Below, one piece after another: positions 2,950 to 52,671 of a stretch of DNA of 63,006 nt (positions are counted from its first letter, which is position 1; each line of letters starts with the position of its first letter). The position numbers and the translations under genes are program-made. The stretch spans positions 1 to 63,006 of the forward strand of contig JABMNW010000025.1 of the NCBI GenBank assembly GCA_013204455.1, written 5' to 3'. This DNA is from Acidimicrobiaceae bacterium (GTDB lineage Bacteria > Actinomycetota > Acidimicrobiia > Acidimicrobiales > Ilumatobacteraceae). Under the pieces are notes generated by a model. It saw nothing but the letters and a program-made list of their open reading frames with translations, was not told the DNA's origin and ran no database searches.

Positions 2950-2979
2950 TTCGACCACTCGAGAGGTAAATCGCGACGA

Positions 2980-4691: not shown

Positions 4692-4693
4692 CG

Positions 4694-27953: not shown

Positions 27954-29344
27954 GAATTGATCTCGGCAATGCAATCTGCGATTGTCTGTTCGATTACATC
28001 AAGTCCCTCGTCCATCGCATCGCGACTAATCGAGAGTGGTGGTGCAAGTTTTATCGACTCTCGTCCAGTGTGTACGACAATCACTCCTCGACACATAAGC
28101 AGTTCGGCGATGTGATCACAAAGCGATGCCAGTGGTTTGCCATCCGGGCTGTTGAACAAAAGAGCGGCAACAAGTCCCTTGCCTTGAATGTAGGCAAGAT
28201 GATTTGGAAATTTTTTCTGCATAGTTTGAAGTCGAGCATGAAAAATAACGCCAAGATCTCTTGCATTATCAATCAGACCATCCTCAATTAGGGCTTGCAG
28301 ATTGGCCTTACCAGCAGCACATACCATTGGATTCGCGGAATGGGTTGAACTCATTGAACCGATGTCTGGCAAGTCCATTACTTTTTGTGACCCAAGTACA
28401 AGTGCCAGAGGCAAACTCGAAGCAGCACCTTTACCACAACAAAGTAAATCTGGTTCAACGTCGTAATGCATATAACCGAACAGTTCACCGGTCCGACCAA
28501 ATCCCGATTGCATTTCGTCGAATGCCACAAGCATCTCGTTCGCGTGAGCAAACTCAACGACGGCCTGGACAAACTCTTTCGGATAGAACACCGCTCCCCA
28601 ACCTTGGAAAGTCTCAAACATCACTCCTGAAAGATCACGTTTTGGATCTATCCCAGTGTCCGCGACAAGTTTCTCTATTCCAATTCGAAAATATTCGACC
28701 GGATCCGACATTGCATCCTTTCGCCATGGATAAGGGAATGGAAGATGATGAATATTCTCATCCTGAAAGCCGATCCATTCCTTCTGCTTTGGGTTCCAAC
28801 CCATCAACTGGGCACCAAGCGTGCGACCATGCCAATTACCTTCAAAGCAAAGAATCCCACCGTGTCGCTTACCGACTTTCTGTCCATGCATACGCATCAA
28901 CTTAAATGCACACTCAGTGGCCTCAGTGCCGGCCGAAAGCAAAAACGCCTTCTCGAACTGTTTCGGAGTGTTTTTGATCAAGTAGTCAATAAATTCGATC
29001 CGCTCAGTGGTTGCAAATGTATAAGTGTGCAATAACGGCTTATCCAATACCGCGCGCAACGCCTTGACAATTCTTGGATTTCCATGTCCAGCATTAGTTA
29101 CAAAAATCGTGCTACTAAAATCAATCCAACAGTTTCCCCATGCATCAAAAACCTGAAAATTTTCAGCACGGTCCCAAATAATTGGCAACTGTCCATGCAT
29201 CGCTCGAGATTCCGTTTCGTACAGGCGCTGTAAAAGCGGAATACTCTCTGGAACAGGTAGTTTTGTAACAATTTTCCGAAAGCGTGTGTCAATTTTTGGA
29301 ACGTCTACCGGTTGATGAGAAAATCCAGTGCCTGCCATTGTCAC
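27950..29344 (-). CDS. Class III (GSA-type) PLP aminotransferase
   Basis: VTNAGHGNPRIVKALR; FLLSAGTEATECAFKLMR; VAFDEMQSGFGRTGELFGY; LLCCGKGAASSLPLALVLG. Confidence 0.93.
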   Translation of the reverse strand: MTMAGTGFSHQPVDVPKIDTRFRKIVTKLPVPESIPLLQRLYETESRAMHGQLPIIWDRAENFQVFDAWGNCWIDFSSTIFVTNAGHGNPRIVKALRAVLDKPLLHTYTFATTERIEFIDYLIKNTPKQFEKAFLLSAGTEATECAFKLMRMHGQKVGKRHGGILCFEGNWHGRTLGAQLMGWNPKQKEWIGFQDENIHHLPFPYPWRKDAMSDPVEYFRIGIEKLVADTGIDPKRDLSGVMFETFQGWGAVFYPKEFVQAVVEFAHANEMLVAFDEMQSGFGRTGELFGYMHYDVEPDLLCCGKGAASSLPLALVLGSQKVMDLPDIGSMSSTHSANPMVCAAGKANLQALIEDGLIDNARDLGVIFHARLQTMQKKFPNHLAYIQGKGLVAALLFNSPDGKPLASLCDHIAELLMCRGVIVVHTGRESIKLAPPLSISRDAMDEGLDVIEQTIADCIAEINS

Positions 29345-30078
29345 TTCACCTTTTGTAAGTAGTCCAACAACGGGGATCCATGAGTTGCAACTTCATACTC
29401 CAAGCGCTGTAATTCCTCTTGCGAGTCTACCTCGGTGCAAACAGGAGAGGTAAAACCGATCACCTTGTCGCCGTGAAGTAGTCCGGTTCGTGCAACGAAT
29501 GAGCGTCGAACAATATCAACATAACCATCTGGAACAAAAACTTTCGGGTACATCTGCCGAGGCATATTAAATCGGTCAAGATCGGTTTCTTCAGAAGTCA
29601 ACGACATCAGAAAACCCTCGCTTGAATGACGAAACCACTTAAACGGTGACTCTGCGCATGGAAACGCAGATCGCAACGCTGTCGCTTCGCTGCGAGCATA
29701 AATCATGTCCAATGCATTATCAATCTGAACTGGGTTACGCAACGGTGTAGTTGGTCGCAAATGAACCCAATACTCTGGAGTTTCTGGTTCATTATCATCA
29801 AACCAATCCATCGCGTGTTGCATAAATCCTATATCTGTAGCCAGGTCATTTGACAATTCATCGGGTCGCATAAATGGGATTTCTGCGCCATACTTCCGAG
29901 CAATTTCGGCATAGCGCTCAGAATCCGTCGAAACCAACACTCGATCTATGGAGTGTGAAAGTTTCGCTGCCGCAATGCTGTAAGCGATAAGTGGGTGGCC
30001 ACCAAGCAAGACAAGATTCTTATCAATAATGCTTTTCGACCCGCTTCGTGCAGGAATGATCGCGATCGCAGATGTCAT
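29341..30078 (-). CDS. Acylneuraminate cytidylyltransferase (NeuA)-like protein
   Basis: AIIPARSGSKSIIDKNLVLLGGHPLIAYSIAAA; VSTDSERYAEIARKYGAEIPFMRP; HLRPTTPLRNP. Confidence 0.92.
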   Translation of the reverse strand: MTSAIAIIPARSGSKSIIDKNLVLLGGHPLIAYSIAAAKLSHSIDRVLVSTDSERYAEIARKYGAEIPFMRPDELSNDLATDIGFMQHAMDWFDDNEPETPEYWVHLRPTTPLRNPVQIDNALDMIYARSEATALRSAFPCAESPFKWFRHSSEGFLMSLTSEETDLDRFNMPRQMYPKVFVPDGYVDIVRRSFVARTGLLHGDKVIGFTSPVCTEVDSQEELQRLEYEVATHGSPLLDYLQKVK

Positions 30079-30092
30079 TTAGCCGACGTCAT

Positions 30093-30971
30093 TCAGAGGT
30101 CAAACTTTTGGTCAAAAGATTCCAATGTAGAGCGAAACCATGCTAGTTGTCGTTTAAAAATTTCAAGTCCTTCTTCGTCTCGAAATGCCTGCATGATAAA
30201 CGGTCCGTCATAGCCATGACGGACGACACCACTAAACACTTCTAAAAAATTAGCATCACCCTCTCCTAACGGAACAGAAAATCCTCCAACTGAACGATCC
30301 TTAATATGCAGATCTGTAATCCTGTCGCCATAGTTGGCAAATTCTTCAGCGGGATCAAAACCAAGACCAGCGCTATTGCCGATGTCGTAGTTAACCGTGA
30401 CTCGATCCGAATTGATTATCTTCAGAAGTTTTTTAAACTCGGTTGCCCGAAGATCCGTCTCGAGACAAAGATTAATCTGACCCAACTCTGCGTTTTTTGT
30501 AAACGTTTGAATCTGTTGCACAAACTTCTCTTGATCTGCTTTGGAAGCGAGACTTGATTGATCAACCAATGGGATAACAATATCGGTGACACCAATTTGC
30601 GAAGCGTTTTCTATTAATTGATTGAGCACGTCTTGGCTTGCTTTGGCGATGTTGTTGTCGTTTGAATGAAGCGGTGCTTCCATAAAGTAATCTGCGCAGA
30701 TCGTCTTTACTACAACACCTGTTTGCGCTGAAATATCGCTAATTTGTCGACAACCTGACGGGGACATCAGTGGGTTTTTCTCAACATCGCTGAAGTCCAA
30801 AATAAATTCAATGCAATCAACTCCAAGTGTCGCAGCGATCTTAAACTCATCGGCCCAGTACCCAACGGGATGAGCCTGGTATCGACCCAGATATTTCGGC
30901 AGAAGTCGCCCCTGCATCACTCCGATTTTCCTCGTGGCAAGCGGCCGCACCTTGGCTGCCGGCATCGTCAT
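30093..30971 (-). CDS. Sugar phosphate isomerase/epimerase (xylose isomerase-like TIM barrel)
   Basis: IGVMQGRLLPKYLGRYQAHPVGYWADEFKIAATLGVDCIEFILD; VNYDIGNSAGLGFD; DLHIKDRSVGG. Confidence 0.87.
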   Translation of the reverse strand: MTMPAAKVRPLATRKIGVMQGRLLPKYLGRYQAHPVGYWADEFKIAATLGVDCIEFILDFSDVEKNPLMSPSGCRQISDISAQTGVVVKTICADYFMEAPLHSNDNNIAKASQDVLNQLIENASQIGVTDIVIPLVDQSSLASKADQEKFVQQIQTFTKNAELGQINLCLETDLRATEFKKLLKIINSDRVTVNYDIGNSAGLGFDPAEEFANYGDRITDLHIKDRSVGGFSVPLGEGDANFLEVFSGVVRHGYDGPFIMQAFRDEEGLEIFKRQLAWFRSTLESFDQKFDL

Positions 30972-31558
30972 CGCGAAGGGGCGAAGAATTCGTCCTCAAT
31001 CAGGCCACATAGAACATGTCCCAACAGAATGTGCCCCTCCTGAATTCTTTCGGTCCGTGTTGCAGGAACCTTTAAGCATTCACACTGAGCGGCGAGTTTT
31101 CCACCACTCTGGCCAGTCAGTCCGACAATATGGAGTCCTTTGGACACCGCGACTTCAACTGCGAGCAATATATTTTTACTATTTCCACTTGTCGAAATTG
31201 GAATGAAAACATCATTTGATGTGGAGATCACTTGGAGTTCACGTGCAAAGATGAACTCATAACCATAATCATTTCCGATTGCGGTAGTCGATGAACTATT
31301 GGTACCAAGCGCCACGCTCGCAAGTGGCGCTCGATCAAACTGCAGTCGAGAGATAAATTCAGCGGCTAAATGCTGCGAATCGGCAAAACTGCCACCATTT
31401 CCTGCAAAAATTACCTTGCCACCGCTACGCAGAGATTCCAAACAACGCTCAGCAAGCCCAACTAGTTGCTCGTGAACGAAATGGTCATCAACAAGGGCAG
31501 AGTGAACACCTAAAGACTCACCAAGGTCATGAGCGATTTTCTTGCGCATGTCTCCCAT
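30968..31558 (-). CDS. gmhA: SIS-domain phosphoheptose isomerase
   Basis: VIFAGNGGSFADSQHLAAEFISR; ISTSGNSKNIL; ERIQEGHILLGHVLCGLIE. Confidence 0.92.
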   Translation of the reverse strand: MGDMRKKIAHDLGESLGVHSALVDDHFVHEQLVGLAERCLESLRSGGKVIFAGNGGSFADSQHLAAEFISRLQFDRAPLASVALGTNSSSTTAIGNDYGYEFIFARELQVISTSNDVFIPISTSGNSKNILLAVEVAVSKGLHIVGLTGQSGGKLAAQCECLKVPATRTERIQEGHILLGHVLCGLIEDEFFAPSR

Positions 31559-31578: not shown

Positions 31579-32625
31579 TCATAGAACATTTCGTAGGTCG
31601 AATTTTGGCAGATGTAGCGACATATCTTGTGAATCAAGTTCATCAAAGATCTGCTGAGACGTCTGCCACGCTGTGATCTGAGACTTTCTAATCGTCTTTC
31701 GTGGCGGCGAAAGCGTGTACGACATCTCGAACGGAAGTTTTGAGTACAGCGCGACCTCGCCCATACCTCCACCTCGAACTTGGAAGAATATTTTTCCTCC
31801 CAACGCGATAGCGGCATCATCCAAAAATGATTCTGAGTAGTCAGCAGAGAACAAACAAACGAAACCAAATTTATGTGCCACTTTCTTGAAGAACTCACAC
31901 GACTCGTGATCTGAGACAATCACTATTGGTGATCCACGTGACCGATTTAGCAAAGCAAGATAAAGCAACCGAAACTCACTCTCTCCAATATTTCGCTCCG
32001 GAGACACTGCGCGGTTACGAACACCCCACGCCACATAATCGCCACCGATAAATATTTTGGACGAATTCAAGACAGATGTCGACAGTTCGGAACTGTCAAG
32101 AAGCCACTGATCTCGTCGCTTTTCTTTGTCCTTGGCTACCAAACGATTGAGCAAAGATAGCGATCGTGTGTAAATCTCTTTTCGAACTTCCACCCGATTA
32201 CGAAACACAATGTACGCGTCTGGGTCGATCAAGATCCGAGATTCAAACTCATCCCAAGTCATTTGCAAAACATCAATCTGATGTCGCAATGCAAGACGTT
32301 TTGCGATTTCAATTTGAGTTGACTCAAATATTTGGTGATCACTTAACGGCCAATCTTGTCGATACTCCCCAGTCACTACAACAAATAGTGTTCTACGCCC
32401 TTGACTTGCGATCCATCTTGCGAGCATCATCACTTCGACAAGATCTCCAATTGTCGGTGGGGACACAAATTGATCCCATGTCACAACATGTCGCATTTCA
32501 CGAGAATCCACGGAATTATTCCTTAACTGCACCAAATCGGGTCGCTGACTGCGCCATGAAACAAACCGATCGCCAAAAGCAGAATTTCCTAACCAACGCC
32601 AAATACGACTCAATAACTTGCTCAA
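31579..32625 (-). CDS. Unassigned protein in polysaccharide locus (possibly glycosyltransferase-like)
   Basis: Intact 348-aa ORF in the operon; no motif I can name confidently. Confidence 0.6.
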   Translation of the reverse strand: MSKLLSRIWRWLGNSAFGDRFVSWRSQRPDLVQLRNNSVDSREMRHVVTWDQFVSPPTIGDLVEVMMLARWIASQGRRTLFVVVTGEYRQDWPLSDHQIFESTQIEIAKRLALRHQIDVLQMTWDEFESRILIDPDAYIVFRNRVEVRKEIYTRSLSLLNRLVAKDKEKRRDQWLLDSSELSTSVLNSSKIFIGGDYVAWGVRNRAVSPERNIGESEFRLLYLALLNRSRGSPIVIVSDHESCEFFKKVAHKFGFVCLFSADYSESFLDDAAIALGGKIFFQVRGGGMGEVALYSKLPFEMSYTLSPPRKTIRKSQITAWQTSQQIFDELDSQDMSLHLPKFDLRNVL

Positions 32626-33500: not shown

Positions 33501-34415
33501 TCAGGACTTCAAAACATTGAACATCGTCTCTACAGAAAGTCCATGCGCGCTAAGGAGATCATCGTGAGTGCCATATATATGAATGAATTCGTCCTTCAGC
33601 GAAAAACTCTTGATCGCACAACGCGAGCCACAATCAAAAGCCAATGCCTTGACTTCCATAGTTAGCGCGCGACTAACGCATTCTTCGATTATCACGACAT
33701 CCGAAAAGGAAGATAGAACAGAGGCAATTCCTTCTCGATCCAGAGGCTTAAGAGTGGGAACGGTTGTTACACAGCAAGACCTCCCGATCGCATCAAGACG
33801 ATTGGACAGTTCGACCGCACTTTTTGTGATCACACCGTAAGTCAAAATACACACATCGGTGCCGCGCTTGATTCTACGAACCTTGCCGAATTGCCAAGGG
33901 TCGATTGCTTGGCTCGTCAAATCTGGCTCTCCTGCCTTGCCAAGACGCAGATATACCGGCCCAACATTCTGCGTTGCGCACCACTTAGTAGCTTCCGCAG
34001 TTTCGCTTGGGTCACAAGGTGCGATGATATTCATATTCGGAATTGACATTGCGATTGCTACATCTTCTTGAGCGTGATGAGTTGCTCCAAGTGTCGAGTA
34101 GGAAACACCGCCGCCAATTCCGACGATCGTCACGGGCAGATTCTGATAACATAGATCGTCACGAACCATTTCAAAAGGTCGATAGAGAGCGAAAGTCGCA
34201 ATCGTGTAAGCAAATGGACGCAACCCACGCTGAGCCATACCAGCGGCCATGCCAATCATGATTTGTTCAGAGACGCCAGTATTTATGAAACGCTCGGGGT
34301 ATTCACTACGAAACTTGGCAATCGATCCAGCCGGGGAAATATCAGCGACAATAAGGCAAATTCTGGAATCTTGACTCCCGAGTTCGTAAAACACCTCTGC
34401 AAAACGATTCCTCAC
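33501..34415 (-). CDS. Split transketolase, C-terminal subunit
   Basis: RFINTGVSEQIMIGMAAGMAQRGLRPFAYTIATFALYRPFEMVRDDLCYQNLPVTIVGIGGGVSYSTLGATHHAQEDVAI. Confidence 0.93.
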   Translation of the reverse strand: MRNRFAEVFYELGSQDSRICLIVADISPAGSIAKFRSEYPERFINTGVSEQIMIGMAAGMAQRGLRPFAYTIATFALYRPFEMVRDDLCYQNLPVTIVGIGGGVSYSTLGATHHAQEDVAIAMSIPNMNIIAPCDPSETAEATKWCATQNVGPVYLRLGKAGEPDLTSQAIDPWQFGKVRRIKRGTDVCILTYGVITKSAVELSNRLDAIGRSCCVTTVPTLKPLDREGIASVLSSFSDVVIIEECVSRALTMEVKALAFDCGSRCAIKSFSLKDEFIHIYGTHDDLLSAHGLSVETMFNVLKS

Positions 34416-35239
34416 GACAAATCGCTTTCAAGTTCACGAATCGCCTGCTCATATTCCGTTCCACTTGGCGAGCGATAATGCCAGATTGGTTCACTCTCCA
34501 TAAACCCGACACCCTTACCCTTAACTGTGCGGGCAATTATCAATCGGGGCTTGTCGGATAATTTCTTCAGCGCAGTTACAAGTTCAAGCGAATCATGCCC
34601 ATTAACTTCTTCCACATCCCAACCGAATGCTTGACCTTTTTCGATAAGTGGATAAAACGCGGGGTGCCCTGTGCTCATACGTTCAAGACCCGTGAAATCA
34701 TTATTATCAACAACTGCGACAAGGTTGTTGAGTTTCAAATTTCCAGCCATCAACATTGCTTCCCAGGTCGAACCTTCTTGTAACTCCCCGTCGGACAGAA
34801 CACAAAATAGCCGCAACGAAGTTCCTTTTAGGTACTCGGCATACGCCTGACCAACTGCGATCCCAAGCCCATGACCAAGCGATCCCGTTGAAGCCGCTAT
34901 TCCAGGAATTCCATAATCTGGATGAGCGCCAAGCCGACCTGCGGGTTTGCAATAAAGTTCCAAATCCTGAGACGACAAGACGCCCCTCTCTTCAAGAATC
35001 ACATACTGAATCATGCAACCATGACCCTTCGACATCAAAAAAATGTCGTCAGTTTCTGGTTGACTTCCAATTCGCATTACCTCGTTATAGATAGCATCAA
35101 CAATTTCTGTGCAAGAAAATGCCGGAGCAATGTGAAGCGCCGAAACCTTTTGCGAAATGTCCAGTATCTTCCGACGATAATTTCTACAACGAATTTTTGC
35201 GTTGCCTCGACTAGATTCACCTTTCGCAGAATTGGTCAT
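34412..35239 (-). CDS. Split transketolase, N-terminal subunit
   Basis: SKGHGCMIQYVILEERG; GSLGHGLGIAVGQAY; LSDGELQEGSTWEAMLMAGNLKLNNLVAVVDNNDFTG. Confidence 0.94.
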   Translation of the reverse strand: MTNSAKGESSRGNAKIRCRNYRRKILDISQKVSALHIAPAFSCTEIVDAIYNEVMRIGSQPETDDIFLMSKGHGCMIQYVILEERGVLSSQDLELYCKPAGRLGAHPDYGIPGIAASTGSLGHGLGIAVGQAYAEYLKGTSLRLFCVLSDGELQEGSTWEAMLMAGNLKLNNLVAVVDNNDFTGLERMSTGHPAFYPLIEKGQAFGWDVEEVNGHDSLELVTALKKLSDKPRLIIARTVKGKGVGFMESEPIWHYRSPSGTEYEQAIRELESDLS

Positions 35240-36296: not shown

Positions 36297-36950
36297 CTAT
36301 TCGATTATCGTCCAGAAATAATCTCCGGTGTACGATGCTTCGTCAAATAGTTGCAACCATCCCGATGGATAGTCATGAAACTTCGCGGTTAGAACCCAAC
36401 TCTCAAAAATTTCCTTCTGTTCAGGAGTGTGGTACGAATCGACCTTGACATACGACCGTCCACCCGATAATCGTTGAATTTCTCGCAATGCAACTTTCGC
36501 CTGGTTCCGATCCAAATTATGAATCGTGTCAAGCGAGATAACACACTGAAAACTTCCGTCCAAGAACGGTAAATTATCTGCCGAAGCATGATTCATTCTC
36601 GAAGCGATCTCAGGTTTGCAATGCTCAAGCGCATACTTTGAAATATCAATCCCGATTGCGTCGATGCCAAGTTCAACTAGTTCGTATACGAGGAAACCCT
36701 TGGCAGCTCCAACATCCAAAAGTTTGTCGCCTTTACGGAGTTTGAAGTGCTCAACAATGTCAACGGCCACACCTTTCCACCGACCATCATCTAGATATCC
36801 CCCATAACCGAACTCTCTTGGGCCATCAAAGTACATCTCGCCATATTCGCGCGCTATCCGAATGTTTTCATCTGATTTCGAATTCTGTCGCAAAGCAACG
36901 TTGCGTTTTGGTTTTTGAATCGAACGGAGAAGATTTATCTCTTGTCTCAC
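36297..36950 (-). CDS. Class I SAM-dependent methyltransferase
   Basis: KLLDVGAAKGFLVYEL; GIDISKYALEH; LPFLDGSFQCVISLDTIHNL. Confidence 0.9.
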   Translation of the reverse strand: MRQEINLLRSIQKPKRNVALRQNSKSDENIRIAREYGEMYFDGPREFGYGGYLDDGRWKGVAVDIVEHFKLRKGDKLLDVGAAKGFLVYELVELGIDAIGIDISKYALEHCKPEIASRMNHASADNLPFLDGSFQCVISLDTIHNLDRNQAKVALREIQRLSGGRSYVKVDSYHTPEQKEIFESWVLTAKFHDYPSGWLQLFDEASYTGDYFWTIIE

Positions 36951-37825
36951 TGACCCGACCCAGTCTGAGTCCCGACCACTTCAAGAAATTGACGATATTG
37001 GAAATCGGGAAATGCCCGGTAGGTCGCAGTCGGATCAAATGCGCGATACCCATTGTGGGGCATTGGACCAAACCGTGCTGATGTACCAATGATCGAGTCG
37101 CCAGTAGTGTTCTCAATTAGTGCCTGCGCAATCTCTCGAAACGACAAAACAGTTCCGGTGGCAATATTTAAAATACCCACCGATTGCGACCAAATAATTC
37201 TTCGCAATAATTCGGCCACGTCATCTATCGAAACATGATCTCTTTTTTCTTCCCCGTCGCCGAAAAGAATAACTTCCTTACCTTGCGCGACAAGTCGGCG
37301 AAACCGATTTGGGCCATATCCATTGTGCGGATCAGCGTCTCCATATATCAATGTCGGTCGAACAATACATAGGTTGTCCGCATAAACGTAGGCGATCATC
37401 AACTCTCGGGAAAGATGCATCGCGCCGTGCAACGAACCAGGGGCGGCTGGTGATTGCTCATTTAGTGGACGATCACTGTCGAGATACACGGCATCCGAAC
37501 TGAGATAAACAACATGTCGAGGCTTTACTTTTTGAATCGTCCTAAGAATCGGAGTCATCATCGCGATATTTCGAATCAACATTTCCGGATCTTTACACGG
37601 GGCCTCAGCAGCCGCAAAAACTACCGAGTCATCCTCGGTAAGCAGTTGCGAGAAGTAAATTTCCGCATCTGGCCCTAGTAGATCTACGTCCTGACGCGTC
37701 ACAGCAATAACCGGAGTTTTTTCTTGTTCGAGACATTGCACTAGGGCACGCCCGACAAATCCGCCTGCGCCAATTACAACCACGCGTGTCGGTCGTAGAC
37801 TCGGCGTTACTTTATGTTGAAGCAT
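36947..37825 (-). CDS. NAD-dependent epimerase/dehydratase
   Basis: VVVIGAGGFVGRALVQCLE; HVVYLSSDAVY; RPTLIYGDADPHNGYGPNRF. Confidence 0.88.
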   Translation of the reverse strand: MLQHKVTPSLRPTRVVVIGAGGFVGRALVQCLEQEKTPVIAVTRQDVDLLGPDAEIYFSQLLTEDDSVVFAAAEAPCKDPEMLIRNIAMMTPILRTIQKVKPRHVVYLSSDAVYLDSDRPLNEQSPAAPGSLHGAMHLSRELMIAYVYADNLCIVRPTLIYGDADPHNGYGPNRFRRLVAQGKEVILFGDGEEKRDHVSIDDVAELLRRIIWSQSVGILNIATGTVLSFREIAQALIENTTGDSIIGTSARFGPMPHNGYRAFDPTATYRAFPDFQYRQFLEVVGTQTGSGQ

Positions 37826-37837
37826 TTCTAAATCGTC

Positions 37838-39109
37838 CTACTTTGCATCTCTCATCGACATACCTAACGTGTAGTACCTGAGTCCGGCTTTCGTGACCTG
37901 TTCAGAGTTAAGAACTCGATACGGGTCAAGCACGATTCTCCCCCTCAAGTTTTTCGCAATCTGAGTCGGTTCAATTCTCCGGTATTCATCCCAAGGAGTC
38001 ATAATCACAACTGCATCCGCGCCATTCATCGCTTCACTGGCACTCGCACACTGTACGACGCCCGGAATTAATGGAAACCTTACCAACGGATCATGAACTC
38101 TTGCTAGCCGAGGAGACCAACCAAATAGAAACTCAACGGCTTGCGAGTTCTTTGTACTGTTCGTATTTTCCTTATAGGCAAGACCTAAGACCGCGACACA
38201 AGCTTCGTCAAGCATTAGAACGGGCTCAGCGTCAATTACCGACCGCACCCAATCTCGGCGATGCAAACTATTCGCCAAGAAAGCCCGAACTACCGAACTC
38301 TCAGTTGAATGCTCATTGGACAATTTAAGTACGGTCGCTAGATCACGCTCTAAGTTTCCCCCAGCGATACCAAGTCCAGGTTGGATATAACTCGCGTTTC
38401 CAATTCGTTTATCGAGACGCAGAGCAGGCACTATCTCCATCCAGTCGGCGCCGATGTGCTCGCAGATCTCCGCCAAAGTATTTGCCGTGGTAACAGAAGC
38501 CACGAGCAATACGTTGATTGCAATTTTTGCAAGTTCTGCACTTTCATAACGCATTGGCAGGATCGGACAACCAAAACTGTTCAATACAGATTGATACGCA
38601 GTTGGAAGAACTGTGAATGGATTCGCACATCCAACGATGAATCGCTCTGGCCGAGTTGCGCGTTCTACTGCTTGACCAAAAATCAGGGTTTCAACTTGAT
38701 AAAACAACCGACGAACATCAAAATTTATCAACCTGGTAAATCCTGGCGAAACTTGTGACATGATCACTAGTACTGCATCATCGTTGATATGAGCCATCGC
38801 AACCTTGATTAGAGATTCAAGTGACTCCGTATTGCTTTGTCCTTTATCGTCCGTCACCACATCCAATGCTGCAAAGATAACCGAACACTTTCGAAGATCG
38901 CTCGGCGTATCGCTAAAGACCAAATTTGGCTTAACTTGCTTAAGTAAATCAACCAACCCGGGTTCATCAATTTGTGACTTTCCATGTTGCAGGTTCTCAA
39001 TCAATCCACTGTCCGTATCGAACCCAACCACCGCAAAGCCCCTTGACGCTATTGCTGCCGCGGTCACAAAACCAAGATGAGATTGGCCGATTACCCCGAC
39101 CGAAGTCAT
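37838..39109 (-). CDS. UDP-glucose/GDP-mannose dehydrogenase family protein lacking the catalytic Cys
   Basis: GVIGQSHLGFVTAAAIASRGFAVVGFDTD; YESAELAKIAINVLL; PGLGIAGGNLERDLATV; VAVLGLAYKENTNSTKNS. Confidence 0.88.
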   Translation of the reverse strand: MTSVGVIGQSHLGFVTAAAIASRGFAVVGFDTDSGLIENLQHGKSQIDEPGLVDLLKQVKPNLVFSDTPSDLRKCSVIFAALDVVTDDKGQSNTESLESLIKVAMAHINDDAVLVIMSQVSPGFTRLINFDVRRLFYQVETLIFGQAVERATRPERFIVGCANPFTVLPTAYQSVLNSFGCPILPMRYESAELAKIAINVLLVASVTTANTLAEICEHIGADWMEIVPALRLDKRIGNASYIQPGLGIAGGNLERDLATVLKLSNEHSTESSVVRAFLANSLHRRDWVRSVIDAEPVLMLDEACVAVLGLAYKENTNSTKNSQAVEFLFGWSPRLARVHDPLVRFPLIPGVVQCASASEAMNGADAVVIMTPWDEYRRIEPTQIAKNLRGRIVLDPYRVLNSEQVTKAGLRYYTLGMSMRDAK

Positions 39110-40038
39110 AATGACGCCATTCTTATTGCTTCTTCACCAAGTGTCCGCAAAACTTTGTTAATCCAAACATCTGTCGTCAAGTTGGTTGTACCACTGCTGA
39201 CTAACTTCTTAAAATAGTCATACTCGTTCAACCATGTTGGATCCGCCTGCTCTAGATCATCCACAACTTCTATCGGTCGCCCGCTTGGGAGAACTCTTGT
39301 TCGATGAATAAACCGAGTCGGACCCCATTTACAAAGTGACTCAATATGTAAACTTCCATTTTCCGCATAAATATCACAAGTAAAATGATTCCTCCAGGAC
39401 AATAAAGTGACCTCGATTTCCATCTGAACACCATTTTTTGTCGAGCCACCAAAAACCACATGGTCAGGCGATAGATTTTCAAATCTACGGCTCGAGTAAA
39501 TTTTTAAGTCCTCGTTTAGCGAACCGAACCAGTAAATCGCCGTATCCAACATGTGACTGCCTAGATCGTGGAGAACACCAGAGCCGTGGTCCCTCCATGC
39601 CGAATCCCGAACTTGTCGCGCCGTCCCATTGCCGTAGAAAACTCGGCAGTGATAGATCTTTCCAAGTTTCCCGGATTCAATAATCTTCTTTGCCGAAACA
39701 TAGTGGGGTTCGAATCGATGATTGTAGGCGGTATAACAAATTACAGAGTTATTTAGCGCTATTTTTTGAAGCTCTTCGATCTTCAGGTCCGTTGTTGTCC
39801 AAAGAGGCTTTTCCACAAGTACGTGTTTTTTATTTTCAAGCAGATACCTAATGATCTCAAACTTTGGCGAGTCTGGGATGCAACACAGAGCCGCATCAAA
39901 ACTCTCCAGAGGTACAGATTTAATATCGCTAAAGTCAGCACTCGTGTTTTCCACATCTACCGTTGCGATACAGTCAACGCCTGCAATATCGCGACGTTTA
40001 CGACCCTGCACTCCAAGGCCCACAACTACGACACGCAC
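39106..40038 (-). CDS. Gfo/Idh/MocA family oxidoreductase
   Basis: VVVVGLGVQGRKRRD; HVLVEKPLW; YNHRFEPHYVSAKKIIESGKLGKIYHCRVFYGNG. Confidence 0.92.
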   Translation of the reverse strand: MRVVVVGLGVQGRKRRDIAGVDCIATVDVENTSADFSDIKSVPLESFDAALCCIPDSPKFEIIRYLLENKKHVLVEKPLWTTTDLKIEELQKIALNNSVICYTAYNHRFEPHYVSAKKIIESGKLGKIYHCRVFYGNGTARQVRDSAWRDHGSGVLHDLGSHMLDTAIYWFGSLNEDLKIYSSRRFENLSPDHVVFGGSTKNGVQMEIEVTLLSWRNHFTCDIYAENGSLHIESLCKWGPTRFIHRTRVLPSGRPIEVVDDLEQADPTWLNEYDYFKKLVSSGTTNLTTDVWINKVLRTLGEEAIRMASL

Positions 40039-40064: not shown

Positions 40065-41624
40065 CTAGGAAACTCTGAATGAAATTTGATCCTCGATGGT
40101 ACGAAGTTTCGCTTCTATCGCCTGTGGTGTTACTGGGATATTGCCATCCTGCTCACACTCACATGCAGCCGCTAATGAACCAAGAATTGAGGCTTGAGCA
40201 ACTGATTTACTTACGAGCATCGCCAAAGTGGCATAAGCCAAAAGAGCATCTCCGGCGCCAACTGGATCAACTACATGATCGCTAAAACTATCGACGACAA
40301 ACCATGTGTCAATGTCGTCAAGGCGCTGATGCTTTGACGTCAGTATCCCCCGATCGCCAAGTTTTAAAATCAATGTCTTACAACGGGCAGCCAGATAGAG
40401 GTCATGTGCAAGTGGTCGAATTCCGGAATCTTGATCGCCAAGCGCAAATCGTGCCTCCCGCTCATTGGGAGTTATCAGATCAAATTCTTGAAATTCCGTT
40501 ATATTTCCCCAGCGACTGGCTACCTGGCTGTCAGCAACTTTGAAAGCATCTTTTGGAATCGCAGCCGACAATCTTGGGATAGTCGATCGGTTAAATATTC
40601 CATGTCGAAAATCACAAAATACGACGGCATCAGTTGACTTAGTCGCGATGCGATCGACAAGAGATGAAAGAATATTCTCCGCAATTGCACGATTGTCAAG
40701 AGTGTCGATTTTCAAAAGTCGATACCCACCTGCAATCACTGCATTTTTATTGGTAGTTGGTCGGGTCTTATCAATAATCAAGTTTGTTACAACTTGAGCA
40801 GATTCCAGGTCGTGGGCAACAAATTTTCCGAGGTCGTCATCACCCAACACAGTTGTAAATGTCACATTTGCGCCGGCACATCGCAAGTGTTTTGCAACCA
40901 CCCCCGCACCACCAACAAAGTCCTCCCGTTCTTCGAATAGGACGCTGAGAGTTGGAGTTTTCGTTTGCCCGCCGACCATTGCGCAACGGGTGTACGAGTC
41001 AACAATCGTGTCCCCAATGACATGAACCGTTTTACTCTTCATTCCTATGAGAGTTGCTCTTAGATCGGCGAATGAGACTCCCTCTCGCTCCATTAAGTTC
41101 ATAAGTTTTTCTAATTTAATTTCTGGTGGCGCCAAATTTATAAGACGTGACGACGAATAGACAATGTCACCTGGCGAAAAAATAATTTCGCCACCGTAAG
41201 CTTCGATCGTCGCCAATTCTTCTGCGGTCTTCGGGTGCATGCCTTGGGCGTTGTACTCATAGCCCTTAACAAAGAAATCTGGCTGAAGCATTTTCAGTGT
41301 TTCGATCGGTGTTGCATTCTCGTCAATCAACACATAATCAACAAATTCGAATGCTGCAAGATTGGCAGCCCGTAAATCCTGTGGCACGTGTGGTCGATGG
41401 TCACCTTTCGTAATATGTCGATCCGCAGTCACACTTGCAATAAGAACTTCTGCCTTTGATTTTGCATAAACAAGATGGCCAAGATGGCCGGGATGAACGA
41501 CATCAAAAGTGCCGTGGCACATAATTACTTTTTTTTCACGAGGTCGGTTTCCAACAGCAGATAAAAGTTCTTCAAGCGTCTTAATCTTGTGCGCGAACAT
41601 TTCTCTGAGTGTCAACGGTGTCAT
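40065..41624 (-). CDS. Bifunctional HldE-like protein: N-terminal nucleotidyltransferase, C-terminal PfkB kinase
   Basis: CHGTFDVVHPGHLGHLVYAKSKAEVLIASVTAD then VHVIGDTIVDSYTRC...FVGGAGVVAKHLRCAGANVTFTTVLGDD...VVDPVGAGDALLAY. Confidence 0.93.
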   Translation of the reverse strand: MTPLTLREMFAHKIKTLEELLSAVGNRPREKKVIMCHGTFDVVHPGHLGHLVYAKSKAEVLIASVTADRHITKGDHRPHVPQDLRAANLAAFEFVDYVLIDENATPIETLKMLQPDFFVKGYEYNAQGMHPKTAEELATIEAYGGEIIFSPGDIVYSSSRLINLAPPEIKLEKLMNLMEREGVSFADLRATLIGMKSKTVHVIGDTIVDSYTRCAMVGGQTKTPTLSVLFEEREDFVGGAGVVAKHLRCAGANVTFTTVLGDDDLGKFVAHDLESAQVVTNLIIDKTRPTTNKNAVIAGGYRLLKIDTLDNRAIAENILSSLVDRIATKSTDAVVFCDFRHGIFNRSTIPRLSAAIPKDAFKVADSQVASRWGNITEFQEFDLITPNEREARFALGDQDSGIRPLAHDLYLAARCKTLILKLGDRGILTSKHQRLDDIDTWFVVDSFSDHVVDPVGAGDALLAYATLAMLVSKSVAQASILGSLAAACECEQDGNIPVTPQAIEAKLRTIEDQISFRVS

Positions 41625-42625
41625 GATTGGTCCTTGGCAAGATATTTAAACCATGTAGTCGTTGCTTGTTTGATCGACTCAGGGTCCCACAATGGAGCGT
41701 CCCGCCAGCGCTCTATGTCCAGCATCATTCTGCCAATTCCTTCTTCAAAGTCCACGAGAGGAAACCACTGCAAGTCGTTGGAAATCGCGGTGATATCGGC
41801 CCATGTACATTCCGGCTCCCCTGGACGCTTGGGTATGTACTCAACATCGCCCACCAAAAGTTCGGTCAAACGATTTATTGACTGTGGGTTACCTGCTCCC
41901 AAATTCCAATGTCGACCAACAATTTCTGTTATTGCTGCAGCATAAAACGCTTTGGCTACATCCGAAACATATACAAAATCGCGACGCTGTGTACCGTCGC
42001 CAACAACTGTGAAAGGTCGACCCGCAAGTTTCTGGCGCAAGAACACACCAAATACTGCACCATAAACACCTGACGTTCTCGAACGTGTTCCATATGCATT
42101 AAATATTCTGACGGAGTTAACTGGTAGTCCATAGACACGATGCCAGTGAAAAGCTGCCTGCTCGCCAAGTAATTTTGACAACGCATACGGATATTGAGGA
42201 CTAAGTGGATGTGACTCCGTCGTTGGCACGCTGGCAAGTCCGTAACAGGATGAAGATGCTGCATAGACGAATTTTTGTACCGAGTTCGCTCGACCAGCCT
42301 CCAACATCCGCACAGTCCCTTGAATATTTACTTCCATGTACTCAATTGGATTTTCAATGGATGGCACTATGTCGCCGATTCCAGCAAAGTGAAAAATAAA
42401 TGTCGCACCCTTGAATACCGCATGTAGCGGCTCTAATTTGCGGATATCTGTAACCAACAAAGACATCTGAGAATTTGCTGAATGGTGCGAGAGATTTGAC
42501 TCACGACCACCAGACAAATTATCGATAACTCGTACCACAAAACCTTCTTGCAGTAGAAGATCAACCATGTGGCTTCCAATGAAGCCCGCACCACCGGTGA
42601 CGACTGCGATCTTGGCACTGCTCAT
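41621..42625 (-). CDS. NAD-dependent epimerase (UDP-glucose 4-epimerase-like)
   Basis: AVVTGGAGFIGSHMVDLLLQEGFVVRVIDNLSGGRESNL; YPYALSKLLGEQ. Confidence 0.92.
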   Translation of the reverse strand: MSSAKIAVVTGGAGFIGSHMVDLLLQEGFVVRVIDNLSGGRESNLSHHSANSQMSLLVTDIRKLEPLHAVFKGATFIFHFAGIGDIVPSIENPIEYMEVNIQGTVRMLEAGRANSVQKFVYAASSSCYGLASVPTTESHPLSPQYPYALSKLLGEQAAFHWHRVYGLPVNSVRIFNAYGTRSRTSGVYGAVFGVFLRQKLAGRPFTVVGDGTQRRDFVYVSDVAKAFYAAAITEIVGRHWNLGAGNPQSINRLTELLVGDVEYIPKRPGEPECTWADITAISNDLQWFPLVDFEEGIGRMMLDIERWRDAPLWDPESIKQATTTWFKYLAKDQS

Positions 42626-43635
42626 GCAGTGTTTTGCGTCTTCAACATCTTGACGTTGTAGTACCTGTCGTCAGTCATCGAACTCTTAAGGTCACCGCGC
42701 TTGAATGCTTTGCACAGATCGCGAACAGCGTCTTCGATTGTAAATCTAGGGCGAAAACCAAGTTCGTTTTGAATCTTTTCTGAATTAATATGGTATGAAC
42801 GAATGTCGTCCGATGGCGCAAATACAATACCGATATCGCCAAGTTCTGGCATCACGGACATAACCGTTTTACGCACAATATCGGCAATATCGGCAATCGA
42901 CATATTTTGAAAACCACAATTAAACGTTTTTCCAGCGATCTTGTTTGAATCAATTTCTAACAACAACTTATAGAGATCACACATATCTTGTACGTGCAGA
43001 TTCGGACGAAGTTGAGATCCACCGAAAACAGTGATCTTCTTATTGTTAACAGCGTGATTGGTAAGAATATTCACCGACAAATCAAGCCGCTGTCGTGGCG
43101 CCCAACCACAAAGCGTCGCGGGACGAATTGTCACGCATACAAAATCCTCCGATTGATGTTTGAACAACAACGGTTCGCACATCCCCTTGTACTTGTTGTA
43201 TAAAGTGAGTGGCACAAGTGGATGATCTTCGGTGACGTCTGGTTTATCGGATACCCCGTAAACAGAACTTGACGATGCATAGATAAAACGAGTTACCCCA
43301 GCCTTCTTTGCCGCAATAACCATCGGCTCAAATGCCTCAAGGTTGACCGATGTGCTGAGTTGCTCATCGAGTTCAAAACTCGCATCATTCGAAATACATG
43401 CCAGATTGATCACAGTGTCGACACCGACGAAAGCCTTGGAAAGCGCATTTTGGTCTCGAAGATCACCCTTTATCAACTTAAAATTTGGATTTGTTTGTGG
43501 CAAAAAATCCGAACCAAAGAAGCACATGTCGTACACGGTCACTTTGTAACCGAGGTCAAGTAGTTGGGGACAAAGAAGACTGCCGACATAACCAGCTCCT
43601 CCAGTGACTAAGACATGCTTCACTTGCTCACCCAC
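42622..43635 (-). CDS. NAD-dependent epimerase/dehydratase
   Basis: VLVTGGAGYVGSLLCPQLLDLGYKVTVYDMCFFG; YASSSSVYG; LYNKYKGMCE. Confidence 0.92.
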   Translation of the reverse strand: MGEQVKHVLVTGGAGYVGSLLCPQLLDLGYKVTVYDMCFFGSDFLPQTNPNFKLIKGDLRDQNALSKAFVGVDTVINLACISNDASFELDEQLSTSVNLEAFEPMVIAAKKAGVTRFIYASSSSVYGVSDKPDVTEDHPLVPLTLYNKYKGMCEPLLFKHQSEDFVCVTIRPATLCGWAPRQRLDLSVNILTNHAVNNKKITVFGGSQLRPNLHVQDMCDLYKLLLEIDSNKIAGKTFNCGFQNMSIADIADIVRKTVMSVMPELGDIGIVFAPSDDIRSYHINSEKIQNELGFRPRFTIEDAVRDLCKAFKRGDLKSSMTDDRYYNVKMLKTQNTA

Positions 43636-43661: not shown

Positions 43662-44387
43662 CTAAATATTGTAGCCAGCGCCGCGTGCGTCGTTGTAGAA
43701 CATCTTCACAGTGTCAAGCGAATATTCGTCAAGACCCTTACCAACTAGAACCAATTTTGCCAAAACATCATTTGTCGCAGTAATGATGTGACAACCAACC
43801 TCATCGGCCTGAAAGACATTCAGCAATTCCCGAGGGCTAGCCCACAACAACTCGGCATCTGGCTTCGATTTTAAAAGTTGTAGTGCGTGTTTCATATGCG
43901 GCACAGGGTCAACGCCCGTGTCGGCAATTCGCCCCGCAAAGACCGAGATGATCACCGGTTGCCCGTCGGGCATTTGATCAACAACTTCTTCAATCTGTGA
44001 GTGCGTCATTATCGCAGTCACATTCACATGCACTCCTTGGTTTGCCAATCGACCGATAAGCGGCGCGGAGCTCTCCCCGCGGGTATTCGTAATCGGTATC
44101 TTCACATTGACATTTGTTCCCCAAGAAGAAATCATCAGTGCTTGACGTTCCATTTCGGAGAATTCATCATCAAACACTTCAAGAGACACTGGTCGATCTG
44201 TTATCAGCGACAACAGTTGACGGGCGAAACCTTCGTAGCTCTCTACTCCGGCTCTTTTCATCAATGTCGGATTGGTCGTGAACCCCTTAATCAGCGGATC
44301 CTTTGACATTGCAACGATGCCGTTGATGTCGGCTCCATCAGCAAAAATCTTTATCTTTAATTGTTGTAATAAAGGGGAGATGCTCAT
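43662..44387 (-). CDS. Transaldolase family protein
   Basis: KIFADGADINGIVAMSKDPLIKGFTTNPTLMKRAGV; Schiff-base Lys region NVNVKIPITNTRG; ISVFAGRIADTG. Start refined to MSISPLLQ. Confidence 0.92.
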   Translation of the reverse strand: MSISPLLQQLKIKIFADGADINGIVAMSKDPLIKGFTTNPTLMKRAGVESYEGFARQLLSLITDRPVSLEVFDDEFSEMERQALMISSWGTNVNVKIPITNTRGESSAPLIGRLANQGVHVNVTAIMTHSQIEEVVDQMPDGQPVIISVFAGRIADTGVDPVPHMKHALQLLKSKPDAELLWASPRELLNVFQADEVGCHIITATNDVLAKLVLVGKGLDEYSLDTVKMFYNDARGAGYNI

Positions 44388-44389
44388 AA

Positions 44390-44950
44390 TTAGGTAGGCG
44401 TCAAGTTTTCTCGCGAACATATCCACGCTACCGCATCAACGAGCGAGAGTACCGAGATTGCTTGGCCGTGTGGTGCATCGTAAGCGGTGTACCCGAGATC
44501 TACGAATATTGTTGTGCATCCAATTTGGTTGCCGGCCTCAATGTCTATTTCCCGATCGCCAACCATATAACTTACGAGAGGGTCAATATTTAGTTTCGCT
44601 GCAGAATCTTCAAGCATCCCTGGTTGTGGCTTTCGCCGCCGTGTTGGTTTTTCCCTTGAGTCATAACAGACCTCAATGTCATCAACCCCTGTCTCGTCGA
44701 GTAACAAACGGTGCATTTCTTCAACCGTTTCAACCGACAAAAAACCAGCAGTCACATCAGGCTGATTTGTAACAACCACAACGAGAAAACCGAGGGTCTG
44801 CAGCCGGTGAACGCAATCTTTGGCGTAGGGGTAGATAGAAAACTCGGTTAAAGTTCTTGCTGCAAACGAACGACCCTCACGAAAATCTGGTTTTACTAAA
44901 ACTCCATCACGATCCAGAAAAACTGCTCGTCGTAAACTTTTGTTTACCAC
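44390..44950 (-). CDS. gmhB: HAD-IIIA phosphatase (heptose-1,7-bisphosphate 7-phosphatase-like)
   Basis: RAVFLDRDGVLVKPDF; VVVVTNQPDVTAGFL; YMVGDREIDIEAGNQIGC. GTG start overlapping the upstream stop (GTGGTAA). Confidence 0.9.
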   Translation of the reverse strand: MVNKSLRRAVFLDRDGVLVKPDFREGRSFAARTLTEFSIYPYAKDCVHRLQTLGFLVVVVTNQPDVTAGFLSVETVEEMHRLLLDETGVDDIEVCYDSREKPTRRRKPQPGMLEDSAAKLNIDPLVSYMVGDREIDIEAGNQIGCTTIFVDLGYTAYDAPHGQAISVLSLVDAVAWICSRENLTPT

Positions 44951-45528
44951 TTTGTCGGGACAATTTGCAAAGACGGATGTGAGACAAGACAGTGCCAAAC
45001 AACTGCTTGAAATGCCTCAGCGTGCGGCGTTACGAGCGCCGAATCTACAACGGGAATAATCACGCAATAATCAGCAACTTTTGCCGTATAACCCCCATCT
45101 CTACCAACGATTCCAATTATTGTCGCGCCGCACTGTTTTGATAACTCAAGTGCCTTAACAATATTCATACTCACATTTCGCTCAATACTTCCGCCTCCAA
45201 CTGAAAAGATCAATACCGCATCATTTTTGGAGATCTTGCTTGTCGTCAACCAAGCCGAGAACACCGTTTCCCAACCCTCATCATTTGTGCGAGCAGTCAA
45301 TTCCGAGACGTTGTCGGTTGGTGCATAGGCTTCAATCCCACAAAGTTTTCTAAAGTCGTTGACGGCATGGCTTGCGTTCCCAGCACTTCCCCCAACGCCA
45401 AGTATAAAAAGTCGACCAGACCGGTCTCTGAGAAGCCTCAGAAATTCGGCAATATCGTCAATCGTCTTGGCATCAATACGGTTACAAATATCAATAGCAC
45501 CCTTAAAAAATTTATCTACATGGCTCAT
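44944..45528 (-). CDS. SIS-domain protein (GmhA-like, divergent)
   Basis: LFILGVGGSAGNASHAVNDFRKLCGIEAYAPTDNVSELTARTNDEGWETVF; VTPHAEAFQAVVWH. Start refined to MSHVDKFF. Confidence 0.88.
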   Translation of the reverse strand: MSHVDKFFKGAIDICNRIDAKTIDDIAEFLRLLRDRSGRLFILGVGGSAGNASHAVNDFRKLCGIEAYAPTDNVSELTARTNDEGWETVFSAWLTTSKISKNDAVLIFSVGGGSIERNVSMNIVKALELSKQCGATIIGIVGRDGGYTAKVADYCVIIPVVDSALVTPHAEAFQAVVWHCLVSHPSLQIVPTKW

Positions 45529-45601
45529 ACAGTTTGAAACTCTCCCGATGTAATGACTAAAGTTTAGTTCGACCAAAGAGCATTCTAGAGAAACAACTGG
45601 A

Positions 45602-46816
45602 TCATGACTTGAGTAGTGGTGAGACTTGGTCGGCAATATGCTCACCTATAGATAGGGATGCTGTCGCAGCAGGTGAAGGTGCATTACAAATGTGCACAGT
45701 TCGACCAATTGTTCGAATCTCAAAGTCGTCAAGCAACTTCCCATCTCGGCTACATGCTTGAGCCCTAATCCCTGCATCTGTAGGCACTAGGTCATCTTTT
45801 GTTATCTCTGGCACGAGTCGTTGCAACGCACTTACGAACGCGGACTTGAATATCGATCTTTTATATTCGCCAATCCCCATCTTCCAATGCTGTCGCGCAA
45901 CTTGACGGAATCCTGGCCAACTGATTGTCTCCCAAATATCACGTAGGTTAAAATCAGTTTTTAGATATCCCTCTCTGGCTAGGGCCAAAACCGCATTTGG
46001 ACCGCATTCAACCGAGCCATCAACCATGCGCGTGAAATGGACTCCCAAAAAAGGAAACGTCGGATCAGGGGTCGGATAAATCAAATTCTTTACAAGTCGT
46101 TGTGCTGAAGCCCGGAGCGAAAAATACTCTCCCCGAAATGGAAGGATTCGTAAATCGAGGTCACGACTCACACTTGTTGCAAGTCGATCTGACTGAAGAC
46201 CAGCACATGCCACAACGACCTTCGCGTCAAACGAACTATGGCTCGTAGAAATTTGCTCTCGTCCAAGCGTTGAAGAAATATTCTCAACTTTTTCTCCAAG
46301 TAGAATTTCTCCGCCAAGTTTGCCAATGCGAAGCGCAAGTTTCTCGCATACTTGCCTGTAATCCACGATGCCTGTCTGAGGAATATAAAGTCCCCGCTTT
46401 CCAGCACAGTACGGCTCACGATCTTTGATTTCGCTTGCAGACAAATACTGGATTCCAGCCAGTCCGTTTGCTTTGCCACGCCTGGCTAGTTCTTCTAATC
46501 CAGAAAATTCATCTTCTCGTGTCGCAACAACTATTTTTCCACATATTTCATGGGTCACCAACTCTTCTTGGCAAAACCTGAGCAACATTTCATAACCTTT
46601 TCGACAATTTTGCGCCTTTAATGATCCCGGCTTGTAATACAAACCGGAATGAATCACGCCGCTGTTTCGACCAGTTTGGTGGGCAGCCAATTTTGATTCT
46701 TTTTCTATCACCACTAGTCGGACACCAGGATGATGCTCAAGTACGGCAACCGCAGATGCAAGACCGACGATGCCCCCACCAATGACAATTACATCGAACG
46801 ACTTACTGGATGTCAC
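45602..46816 (-). CDS. lhgO: L-2-hydroxyglutarate oxidase (FAD-dependent)
   Basis: DVIVIGGGIVGLASAVAVLEHHPGVRLVVIEKESKLAAHQTGRNSGVIHSGLYYKPGSLKA. Confidence 0.92.
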   Translation of the reverse strand: MTSSKSFDVIVIGGGIVGLASAVAVLEHHPGVRLVVIEKESKLAAHQTGRNSGVIHSGLYYKPGSLKAQNCRKGYEMLLRFCQEELVTHEICGKIVVATREDEFSGLEELARRGKANGLAGIQYLSASEIKDREPYCAGKRGLYIPQTGIVDYRQVCEKLALRIGKLGGEILLGEKVENISSTLGREQISTSHSSFDAKVVVACAGLQSDRLATSVSRDLDLRILPFRGEYFSLRASAQRLVKNLIYPTPDPTFPFLGVHFTRMVDGSVECGPNAVLALAREGYLKTDFNLRDIWETISWPGFRQVARQHWKMGIGEYKRSIFKSAFVSALQRLVPEITKDDLVPTDAGIRAQACSRDGKLLDDFEIRTIGRTVHICNAPSPAATASLSIGEHIADQVSPLLKS

Positions 46817-51357: not shown

Positions 51358-52671
51358 CTATGCCTTCACTATGTTTTGGCCACCACCGCGATATACGCCT
51401 CGACTATCAACGATCAATCGAGCATGGCGAGAGATCTCTTCGTAATTGAAGGCGTCGTGATTGGTGGTGAGAACGATTGCGTCAAAACTCTCAAGCGATT
51501 TTGGATTCAAGTCAACACTCGTGAGTTCGAAACGATGCTCACGCATTTTTGGAAACACTGGCACATGCGGGTCAGAATACGAGATCTCCGCGCCGCGAGT
51601 GCGGAGTATCTCCATAATCGCTACCGCTGGCGACTCACGCATGTCATCGACATTTTTCTTGTAAGCGATCCCCAAAATCAATATCCGACTGCCATTGATT
51701 GATTTTTTCTGAGAGTTCAGCGCATCGTTTAATTTCTCAACAATCCACTCGGGCATCGACGAATTAACTTCGCCGGCAAGTTCAATAAATCGGGTATTGA
51801 CCCCGTACTCTCTTGCTTTCCATGTGAGATAAAACGGATCGATCGGAATACAGTGCCCACCAAGTCCTGGCCCCGGATAAAAAGCCGTGAAGCCAAATGG
51901 TTTGGTCGCCGCCGCATCGATCACCTCAAATATGTCGACACCCATCTTGTCTGCGACGATCTTCATTTCATTGACGAGACCAATATTTACCGAGCGATGA
52001 ATGTTCTCCAATAATTTTGTCATTTCTGCTGCTCGAGTTGAACTCATTGGGACGAGTTGGTCAATCGCGGTTTGATAAACTGCCATGCCAACTTTTAGGC
52101 ACATTGGTGTTGAGCCACCAACAATTTTTGGAATGCTGCGAGTCGAGAATCGAGCATTACCGGGATCTTCACGCTCCGGTGAATAGACAAGAAATACATC
52201 GTGTCCAACACGAAGTCCAGTCGATTCAATTCGTGGTCTGACAATCTCTTCTGTCGTACCTGGATATGTCGTGCTCTCAAGTGATACGACATGGCCACTA
52301 CGCAGGTGGGGAACTAACGCGTCAACCGTCTGAATAATGAAACTCAAATCTGGTTCACGGTGTGCAGTCAGCGGAGTCGGCACACAAAGAATAAGTGCAT
52401 CACAATCGCGCACTTCTGCAAAATTTGTCGTCGCGCGAAATCCTTGTTGTAGCGCAGTCTTCACGGATTCATGGGGAAAGTGGGCAATATAACTTTCACC
52501 CGCCATAAGTTTCGTCACCTTTTGTGCATCAATGTCAAAACCAACTACGCGCACACCAGAATCGGAAAAACGCAAAGCAAGCGGAAGTCCGACATACCCC
52601 AGACCAACTATTCCGACCGTACCTTTTCGGTTTGCGAACATATCAATGAGGTCACTACCAAGGGCCATCAA
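51358..52671 (-). CDS. wbpA: Nucleotide sugar dehydrogenase, WbpA-like (UDP-GlcNAc 6-dehydrogenase)
   Basis: [70 protein letters not shown] (catalytic Cys present). Confidence 0.93.

Follow-up and report, generated by a model that had tools for sequence, protein, structure and literature searches.

A Cys-less sister family of UDP-sugar dehydrogenases, associated with octose-type gene cassettes and predicted to perform two-electron chemistry

The window, i.e. the whole analysed stretch of 63,006 nucleotides from an Acidimicrobiaceae bacterium, harbors a surface-polysaccharide locus with a cassette of sugar genes clustered around a UGD-family dehydrogenase (Table 1). In its conserved form, this cassette consists of a transaldolase, a GmhA-like isomerase, a GmhB-like phosphatase, a sugar kinase, a nucleotidyltransferase, a Gfo/Idh oxidoreductase, and an SDR. 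In the window, a fused adenylyltransferase-kinase and extended SDRs replace the usual counterparts; the fusion and two of the SDRs are common to a second locus, denoted L031. The transaldolase is the only member of the TIGR02134 subfamily found in the genome. A preceding analysis of the letters alone (the sequence-only reading) had pointed to a WbpA-like paralogue with a normal GGHCIP motif at 51358, and this is confirmed.

Table 1. Cassette genes of the window, altered codons of the dehydrogenase, and the canonical paralogue.
Feature	Position	Strand	Remarks
Extended SDR (RmlD/heptose-epimerase-like)	36947..37825	(-)	downstream of the dehydrogenase
Cys-less UGD-family protein (LmbL-type), 423 aa	37838..39109	(-)	Pfam PF03721/PF00984/PF03720, Asn252, clade 100/99, AlphaFold
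Codon AAC, Asn252 in place of catalytic Cys260 (SpUGDH numbering)	38354..38356	(-)	
Codon CAA, Gln119 in place of Thr118	38753..38755	(-)	
Codon CAT, His11 in place of Tyr10	39077..39079	(-)	
Gfo/Idh/MocA oxidoreductase, LmbZ-like position	39106..40038	(-)	Pfam
HldE-like fusion, swapped: adenylyltransferase domain, then PfkB kinase	40065..41624	(-)	homologues in L031 (641 bits) and L182 (593 bits)
Extended SDR (NDP-sugar epimerase/dehydratase type)	41621..42625	(-)	homologue in L031 (403 bits)
Extended SDR (NDP-sugar epimerase type)	42622..43635	(-)	homologue in L031 (429 bits)
Transaldolase, TIGR02134 subfamily	43662..44426	(-)	346 bits, cut-off 282
GmhB-like HAD phosphatase	44390..44998	(-)	
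Divergent GmhA-like SIS sugar-phosphate isomerase	44944..45645	(-)	55 bits, gmhA cut-off 209
Canonical WbpA-like paralogue, GGHCIP	51358..52671	(-)	for comparison, outside the cassette

The window contains further genes of interest besides the cassette. Inside the sugar locus, a transketolase is split over two adjacent genes (33501-35239), and a TPP-enzyme alpha/beta-like pair lies near the cassette of L031; a two-carbon transfer to a sugar is possible. At 27950-31558, a TIM-barrel isomerase-like gene neighbors a second, more GmhA-like isomerase; a PseF-like cytidylyltransferase and a class III aminotransferase complete this group, which may represent another unusual sugar pathway. HisH- and HisF-like genes accompany a WbuX-type N-acetyl-sugar amidotransferase (TIGR03573, 271 bits) at 12910-15440, an arrangement as in acetamidino-sugar synthesis. 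Two ORFs of the sugar locus, 31579-32625 (348 aa) and 24155-25918 (587 aa), have no Pfam match.

The dehydrogenase ORF is intact, with an ATG start and a TAG stop, and its product contains all three UGD domains. Among curated models, TIGR03026, which stands for the general subfamily of nucleotide-sugar dehydrogenases, fits best, with 197 bits against a cut-off of 190. Structural modelling, as proposed in the sequence-only reading, yields the UGD fold: the AlphaFold model, based on 36 sequences, reaches a pLDDT of 93, and its top PDB folds are UDP-glucose dehydrogenases, with a TM-score of up to 0.90 for 2y0c/2y0e. Alignment to solved structures places Asn252 at the position of the catalytic Cys, the replacement on which that reading had been built, and the motif harbors no other Cys that would restore the active site. 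Since a change from TGC or TGT to AAC requires two substitutions, a one-base error does not explain Asn252. The AELxK...N region is kept as claimed, at Lys195 and Asn199 (SpUGDH Lys204 and Asn208), and so is Asp256 (Asp264). The N-terminal Rossmann motif, likewise described as kept, turns out to be incomplete, as GxGxxG reads G-Q-S-H-L-G, with Ser for Gly9 and His for the catalytic Tyr10. Furthermore, the STV motif reads SQV, exchanging the catalytic Thr118 for Gln, and Phe occupies the Glu145 position. These co-changes, overlooked in the sequence-only reading, are key to the function of this dehydrogenase.

A profile scan with the family alignment over 84,980 genomes yields at least 534 relatives, some of which may be Cys-bearing homologues. 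A set of 86 sequences, made up of the 80 best relatives, five additional members, and the window protein, lacks the Cys throughout (Thr in 84, Asn in two). His for Tyr10 and Gln for Thr118 are found in 86/86, and Leu at the Glu145 position in 82/86. Glu141, Glu201, Lys204, Asn208, Gly258, and Asp264 are retained in every member (86/86); canonical homologues keep the Cys, Asp264, Lys204, and Asn208 in 23/23 cases. In a maximum-likelihood tree, every Cys-less row falls on one side of one branch (100/99). A clade sharing the Cys loss, which the sequence-only reading had suggested looking for, does exist, with 86 Cys-less members. The window protein and that of L031 are sisters (100/100), and the former sits on a long branch, with approximately 29-42% identity to other Cys-less members. 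As judged from alignment and tree, the Cys loss belongs to a set of at least four linked changes that define a deep sister family of these enzymes; the initial view of an odd single substitution in a UDP-sugar dehydrogenase is not supported. This family is widespread and common also to lincomycin-type antibiotic clusters. The best 80 loci belong to Pseudomonadota, Acidobacteriota, Chloroflexota, Myxococcota, Verrucomicrobiota, Planctomycetota, Bacteroidota, Chlorobiota, Actinomycetota, Nitrospirota, Cyanobacteriota, archaea, and others.

Relatives that score better than ordinary dehydrogenases are few in the class and phylum of the window, as seen in two samples of about 400 genomes apiece. 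The closest one (L026/L031) shows 42% identity and reads AGGNLERD at the Cys site; the motif is AGGTLGRD in L027, AGGTLARD in L022, and GGTLARD in the copies of Rhizobium jaguaris and of a Lawsonia intracellularis plasmid. An Arthrobacter homologue of similar identity (L029) is not Cys-less and carries a normal GGGCLP motif. Among the 100 nearest genomes, nothing scores above ordinary Cys-bearing dehydrogenases, and Cys is present in 19/19 inspected proteins, which indicates that the Cys-less gene is sporadic in its own lineage.

The trio of HldE-like fusion, Gfo, and Cys-less dehydrogenase is shared by the window, L031, and two IMG/VR contigs, L182 (IMGVR_UViG_3300009418_002352, trio at 2427-6215) and L193 (3300009620_001209). 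The dehydrogenases of both contigs have His at the Cys position (GGHLERD). By these motifs, the four loci appear as a recognisable subtype with N or H at the Cys site, followed by LERD. L182 also encodes a ribonucleotide reductase and ORFs that look, by eye, like tail or structural genes, which suggests a phage; a phage-borne pathway for long-chain sugar nucleotides is possible. In the scan of viral contigs, a single-protein query gave nothing, and the matches came from the family alignment. Five further IMG/VR contigs of putative viral nature (L177-L181) contain Thr-type Cys-less dehydrogenases, several of them near a transaldolase, an isomerase, and a kinase.

Cassette neighbors were sought with the window and Lawsonia proteins as queries around 49 Cys-less and 20 canonical loci. 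Of the six core genes, four or more occur together at 42/49 Cys-less loci versus 0/20 canonical ones. The individual genes occur next to the Cys-less dehydrogenase in 47/49 (Gfo/Idh), 46/49 (kinase), 42/49 (nucleotidyltransferase), 40/49 (transaldolase), 38/49 (isomerase), and 37/49 cases (phosphatase); around the canonical homologues, each of the six was found in 0/20. The controls stem mostly from the window's own order and thus differ in taxonomy from the Cys-less set, a mismatch that is unlikely to matter given the size of the contrast. One eight-gene order, dehydrogenase-SDR-Gfo-kinase-nucleotidyltransferase-isomerase-phosphatase-transaldolase, recurs at 25 loci. A full octose-like cassette, annotated only as generic sugar genes, lies on the Lawsonia intracellularis plasmid (L030, 4952-13303). 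Among cultured environmental strains, Rhizobium jaguaris CCGE525 and Mycolicibacterium sp. P1-18 possess the cassette as well. In open-access papers, no description of the cassette outside lincosamides was found, and none of the PDB matches to the isomerase, transaldolase, and Gfo proteins is named as an octose enzyme. By its gene context, the dehydrogenase is more likely to act on a C7/C8 NDP-sugar than on an ordinary UDP-hexose.

The octose of lincomycin is built by the transaldolase LmbR, the isomerase LmbN, the kinase LmbP, the phosphatase LmbK, the guanylyltransferase LmbO, the epimerase LmbM, the dehydrogenase LmbL, and the oxidoreductase LmbZ (PMC4351081), with the gene order lmbRSOPZNML (PMC7014725). 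GDP-octose is converted to GDP-lincosamide by LmbM, LmbL, CcbZ, and CcbS (PMC12945683). By gene content, the cassette module matches the octose part of the lincomycin/celesticetin cluster. In Streptomyces, the dehydrogenase profile gave no match at an E-value of 1e-106, as the lincosamide versions score lower (248-317 bits), and a transaldolase-family search was needed; it yielded three matches in 189 Streptomyces genomes (G1379, G1409, G1422). All three harbor TAL-AT-NT-GHMP-GFO-SIS-SDR-UGDL plus HAD, corresponding to R-S-O-P-Z-N-M-L plus K. The set is contiguous in G1379 and G1409, which additionally contain a glycosyltransferase and are known here as a module, not as a full lincosamide cluster. 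In G1422, other genes are interspersed and the phosphatase lies on the opposite strand. Its extra genes encode a WS/DGAT acyltransferase, AMP ligases, a PLP enzyme, an O-methyltransferase, an alcohol dehydrogenase, PmbA/TldD, a glycosyltransferase, and ABCF; by comparison of the gene list with PMC4351081, G1422 is a celesticetin-type cluster. The three proteins at the lmbL position are Cys-less and show the signature His, Gln, Leu, Thr, and Arg. They fall inside the Cys-less clade (100/98), in which the exact position of the window protein, as a long branch, is less sure. The window protein carries the LmbL/CcbL-type signature (His, Gln, no Glu145, Thr or Asn, Arg-Asp), with Asn for the Thr and Phe for the Leu of the Streptomyces proteins, and is accompanied by the LmbL/CcbL-type partner genes, kinase and nucleotidyltransferase being fused in the HldE manner.

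In UGD catalysis, Cys260 is the nucleophile of the second oxidation, Tyr10 is involved in thioester hydrolysis, and Thr118 in water binding; Asp264 is a base, and Lys204 and Asn208 stabilise the first oxidation (PMC4794789). Cys260 and Thr118 were invariant among 229 surveyed sequences (PMC4794789). The window protein lacks both the Cys of the GGxC(F/I)P motif and the Tyr10/Thr118 pair of the four-electron type and possesses the UGD fold and the first-oxidation residues. With the thioester-step residues replaced and the first-hydride residues kept, one half-reaction is removed as a set and the other retained. From these residues, the window dehydrogenase should not perform the thioester half-reaction and, in agreement with the sequence-only reading, should be unable to form an acid by four-electron oxidation. 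Of the options listed there, two-electron oxidation is the best reading for the Cys-less family; an inactive protein is unlikely, since the first-oxidation residues are retained in 86/86.

It is rather probable that the window protein is an LmbL/CcbL-type NDP-sugar dehydrogenase catalysing a two-electron C6 oxidation of an NDP-linked long-chain aldose, most likely an octose. Synthesis of the NDP-sugar upstream would fall to the transaldolase, the GmhA-like isomerase, the kinase, the phosphatase, and the nucleotidyltransferase, and NAD+ would take a hydride at C6 of the NDP-octose (or heptose). An NDP-hexose has a primary alcohol at C6, which allows two rounds of oxidation. The C6 of an octose or heptose is a secondary alcohol bearing the extra carbons, so that hydride removal would yield a ketone and the thiohemiacetal/thioester route to an acid would not be available. 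The loss of exactly Cys, Tyr10, and Thr118 would follow from the missing second half-reaction, and their replacement probably also makes space for C7/C8. The 6-keto sugar would next serve as substrate for neighboring Gfo/Idh and SDR enzymes, which would epimerise, dehydrate, or reduce it. For the Cys-less family as a whole, the oxidation of longer sugars, most likely with eight carbons, very probably stops at the ketone. In the window, the domain-swapped HldE-like fusion in place of a separate kinase and nucleotidyltransferase predicts an ADP-linked sugar, presumably destined for a surface polysaccharide. Some features do not fit well. The window protein is a long branch with Asn in place of the Thr of most members and could therefore catalyse a different reaction. 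In addition, the window lacks the FabG-like SDR found behind the gene at most loci, and its cassette has no associated aminotransferase.

A tentative alternative, less probable than not, is that NAD stays bound and the enzyme acts as an epimerase or 6,8-dehydratase, which oxidises, eliminates or flips, and re-reduces without net redox change; it is a variant of, and compatible with, the two-electron C6 oxidation. LmbM, LmbL, CcbZ, and CcbS reportedly perform 6-epimerisation, 6,8-dehydration, 4-epimerisation, and 6-transamination according to a 2020 study, which would make LmbL a possible dehydratase whose redox steps are internal, and the neighboring SDR and Gfo genes could also re-reduce. However, LmbL is listed simply as a C8 dehydrogenase (PMC4351081, PMC12945683). 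That the same two-electron chemistry acts on an S7P-derived NDP-heptose is unlikely. GmhA-, GmhB-, and HldE-like proteins are all encoded in the window, and HldE works on heptose in LPS synthesis, but ordinary S7P-based heptose pathways need no transaldolase, a gene present at most cassette loci (40/49). Moreover, the window lacks the equivalog-level GmhA and HldE scores of an ADP-heptose pathway (gmhA 55 of 209, HldE 144 of 521 bits), and the far more GmhA-like isomerase elsewhere in the window scores 160-170 bits. A pseudoenzyme that only binds nucleotide sugar or scaffolds a complex, as the loss of the nucleophile, Tyr10, and Thr118 might suggest, is very improbable in view of the invariant Lys204, Asn208, Asp264, and Glu141 and the confident fold. 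That an ordinary UDP-glucose dehydrogenase was misread in sequencing or has recently decayed, conceivable in an incomplete draft of 208 contigs, is ruled out for practical purposes by the two-base codon change, the intact ORF, and the same or equivalent replacement in the closest relatives.

An activated eight-carbon sugar pathway via transaldolase has so far been known from lincosamide antibiotics. There is perhaps an even chance that the transaldolase-based octose pathway is a general surface-glycan module of many bacterial phyla, archaea, and some phages, with the window as a distinct ADP-type branch whose C6 dehydrogenase has Asn/His for Cys. If true, bacteria and archaea would commonly use lincosamide-type octose units in their surface glycans, and polysaccharide genes would be the likely source of the antibiotic pathway. 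Database names such as UDP-glucose dehydrogenase or nucleotide sugar dehydrogenase imply sugar acids for the Cys-less proteins. A short residue signature sets apart this large family, whose members should not form acids through the known mechanism; the predicted product is a C6-keto sugar, probably with eight carbons.

Compared with UDP-glucose 6-, GDP-mannose 6-, and UDP-ManNAc dehydrogenases, the window protein shares the three-domain fold and Lys204/Asn208/Asp264/Glu141 but lacks Cys260, Tyr10, Thr118, and Glu145. The ADP-heptose (GmhA-HldE-GmhB) and GDP-heptose (GmhA-HddA-GmhB-HddC) pathways follow the same isomerase/kinase/phosphatase/nucleotidyltransferase logic as the cassette, which adds a transaldolase and the set of Cys-less dehydrogenase, Gfo, and SDR. 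LmbL/CcbL, represented by the Streptomyces lmbL-position proteins, belongs to the same clade as the window protein and resembles it in the class of Cys replacement and in having His at the Tyr10 and Gln at the Thr118 position, as well as in its transaldolase, isomerase, phosphatase, kinase, nucleotidyltransferase, Gfo/Idh, and SDR partners. Unlike it, the window protein has Asn instead of Thr, is accompanied by the swapped HldE-like fusion instead of LmbP and LmbO, and is encoded in a surface-polysaccharide locus without lincosamide condensation genes.
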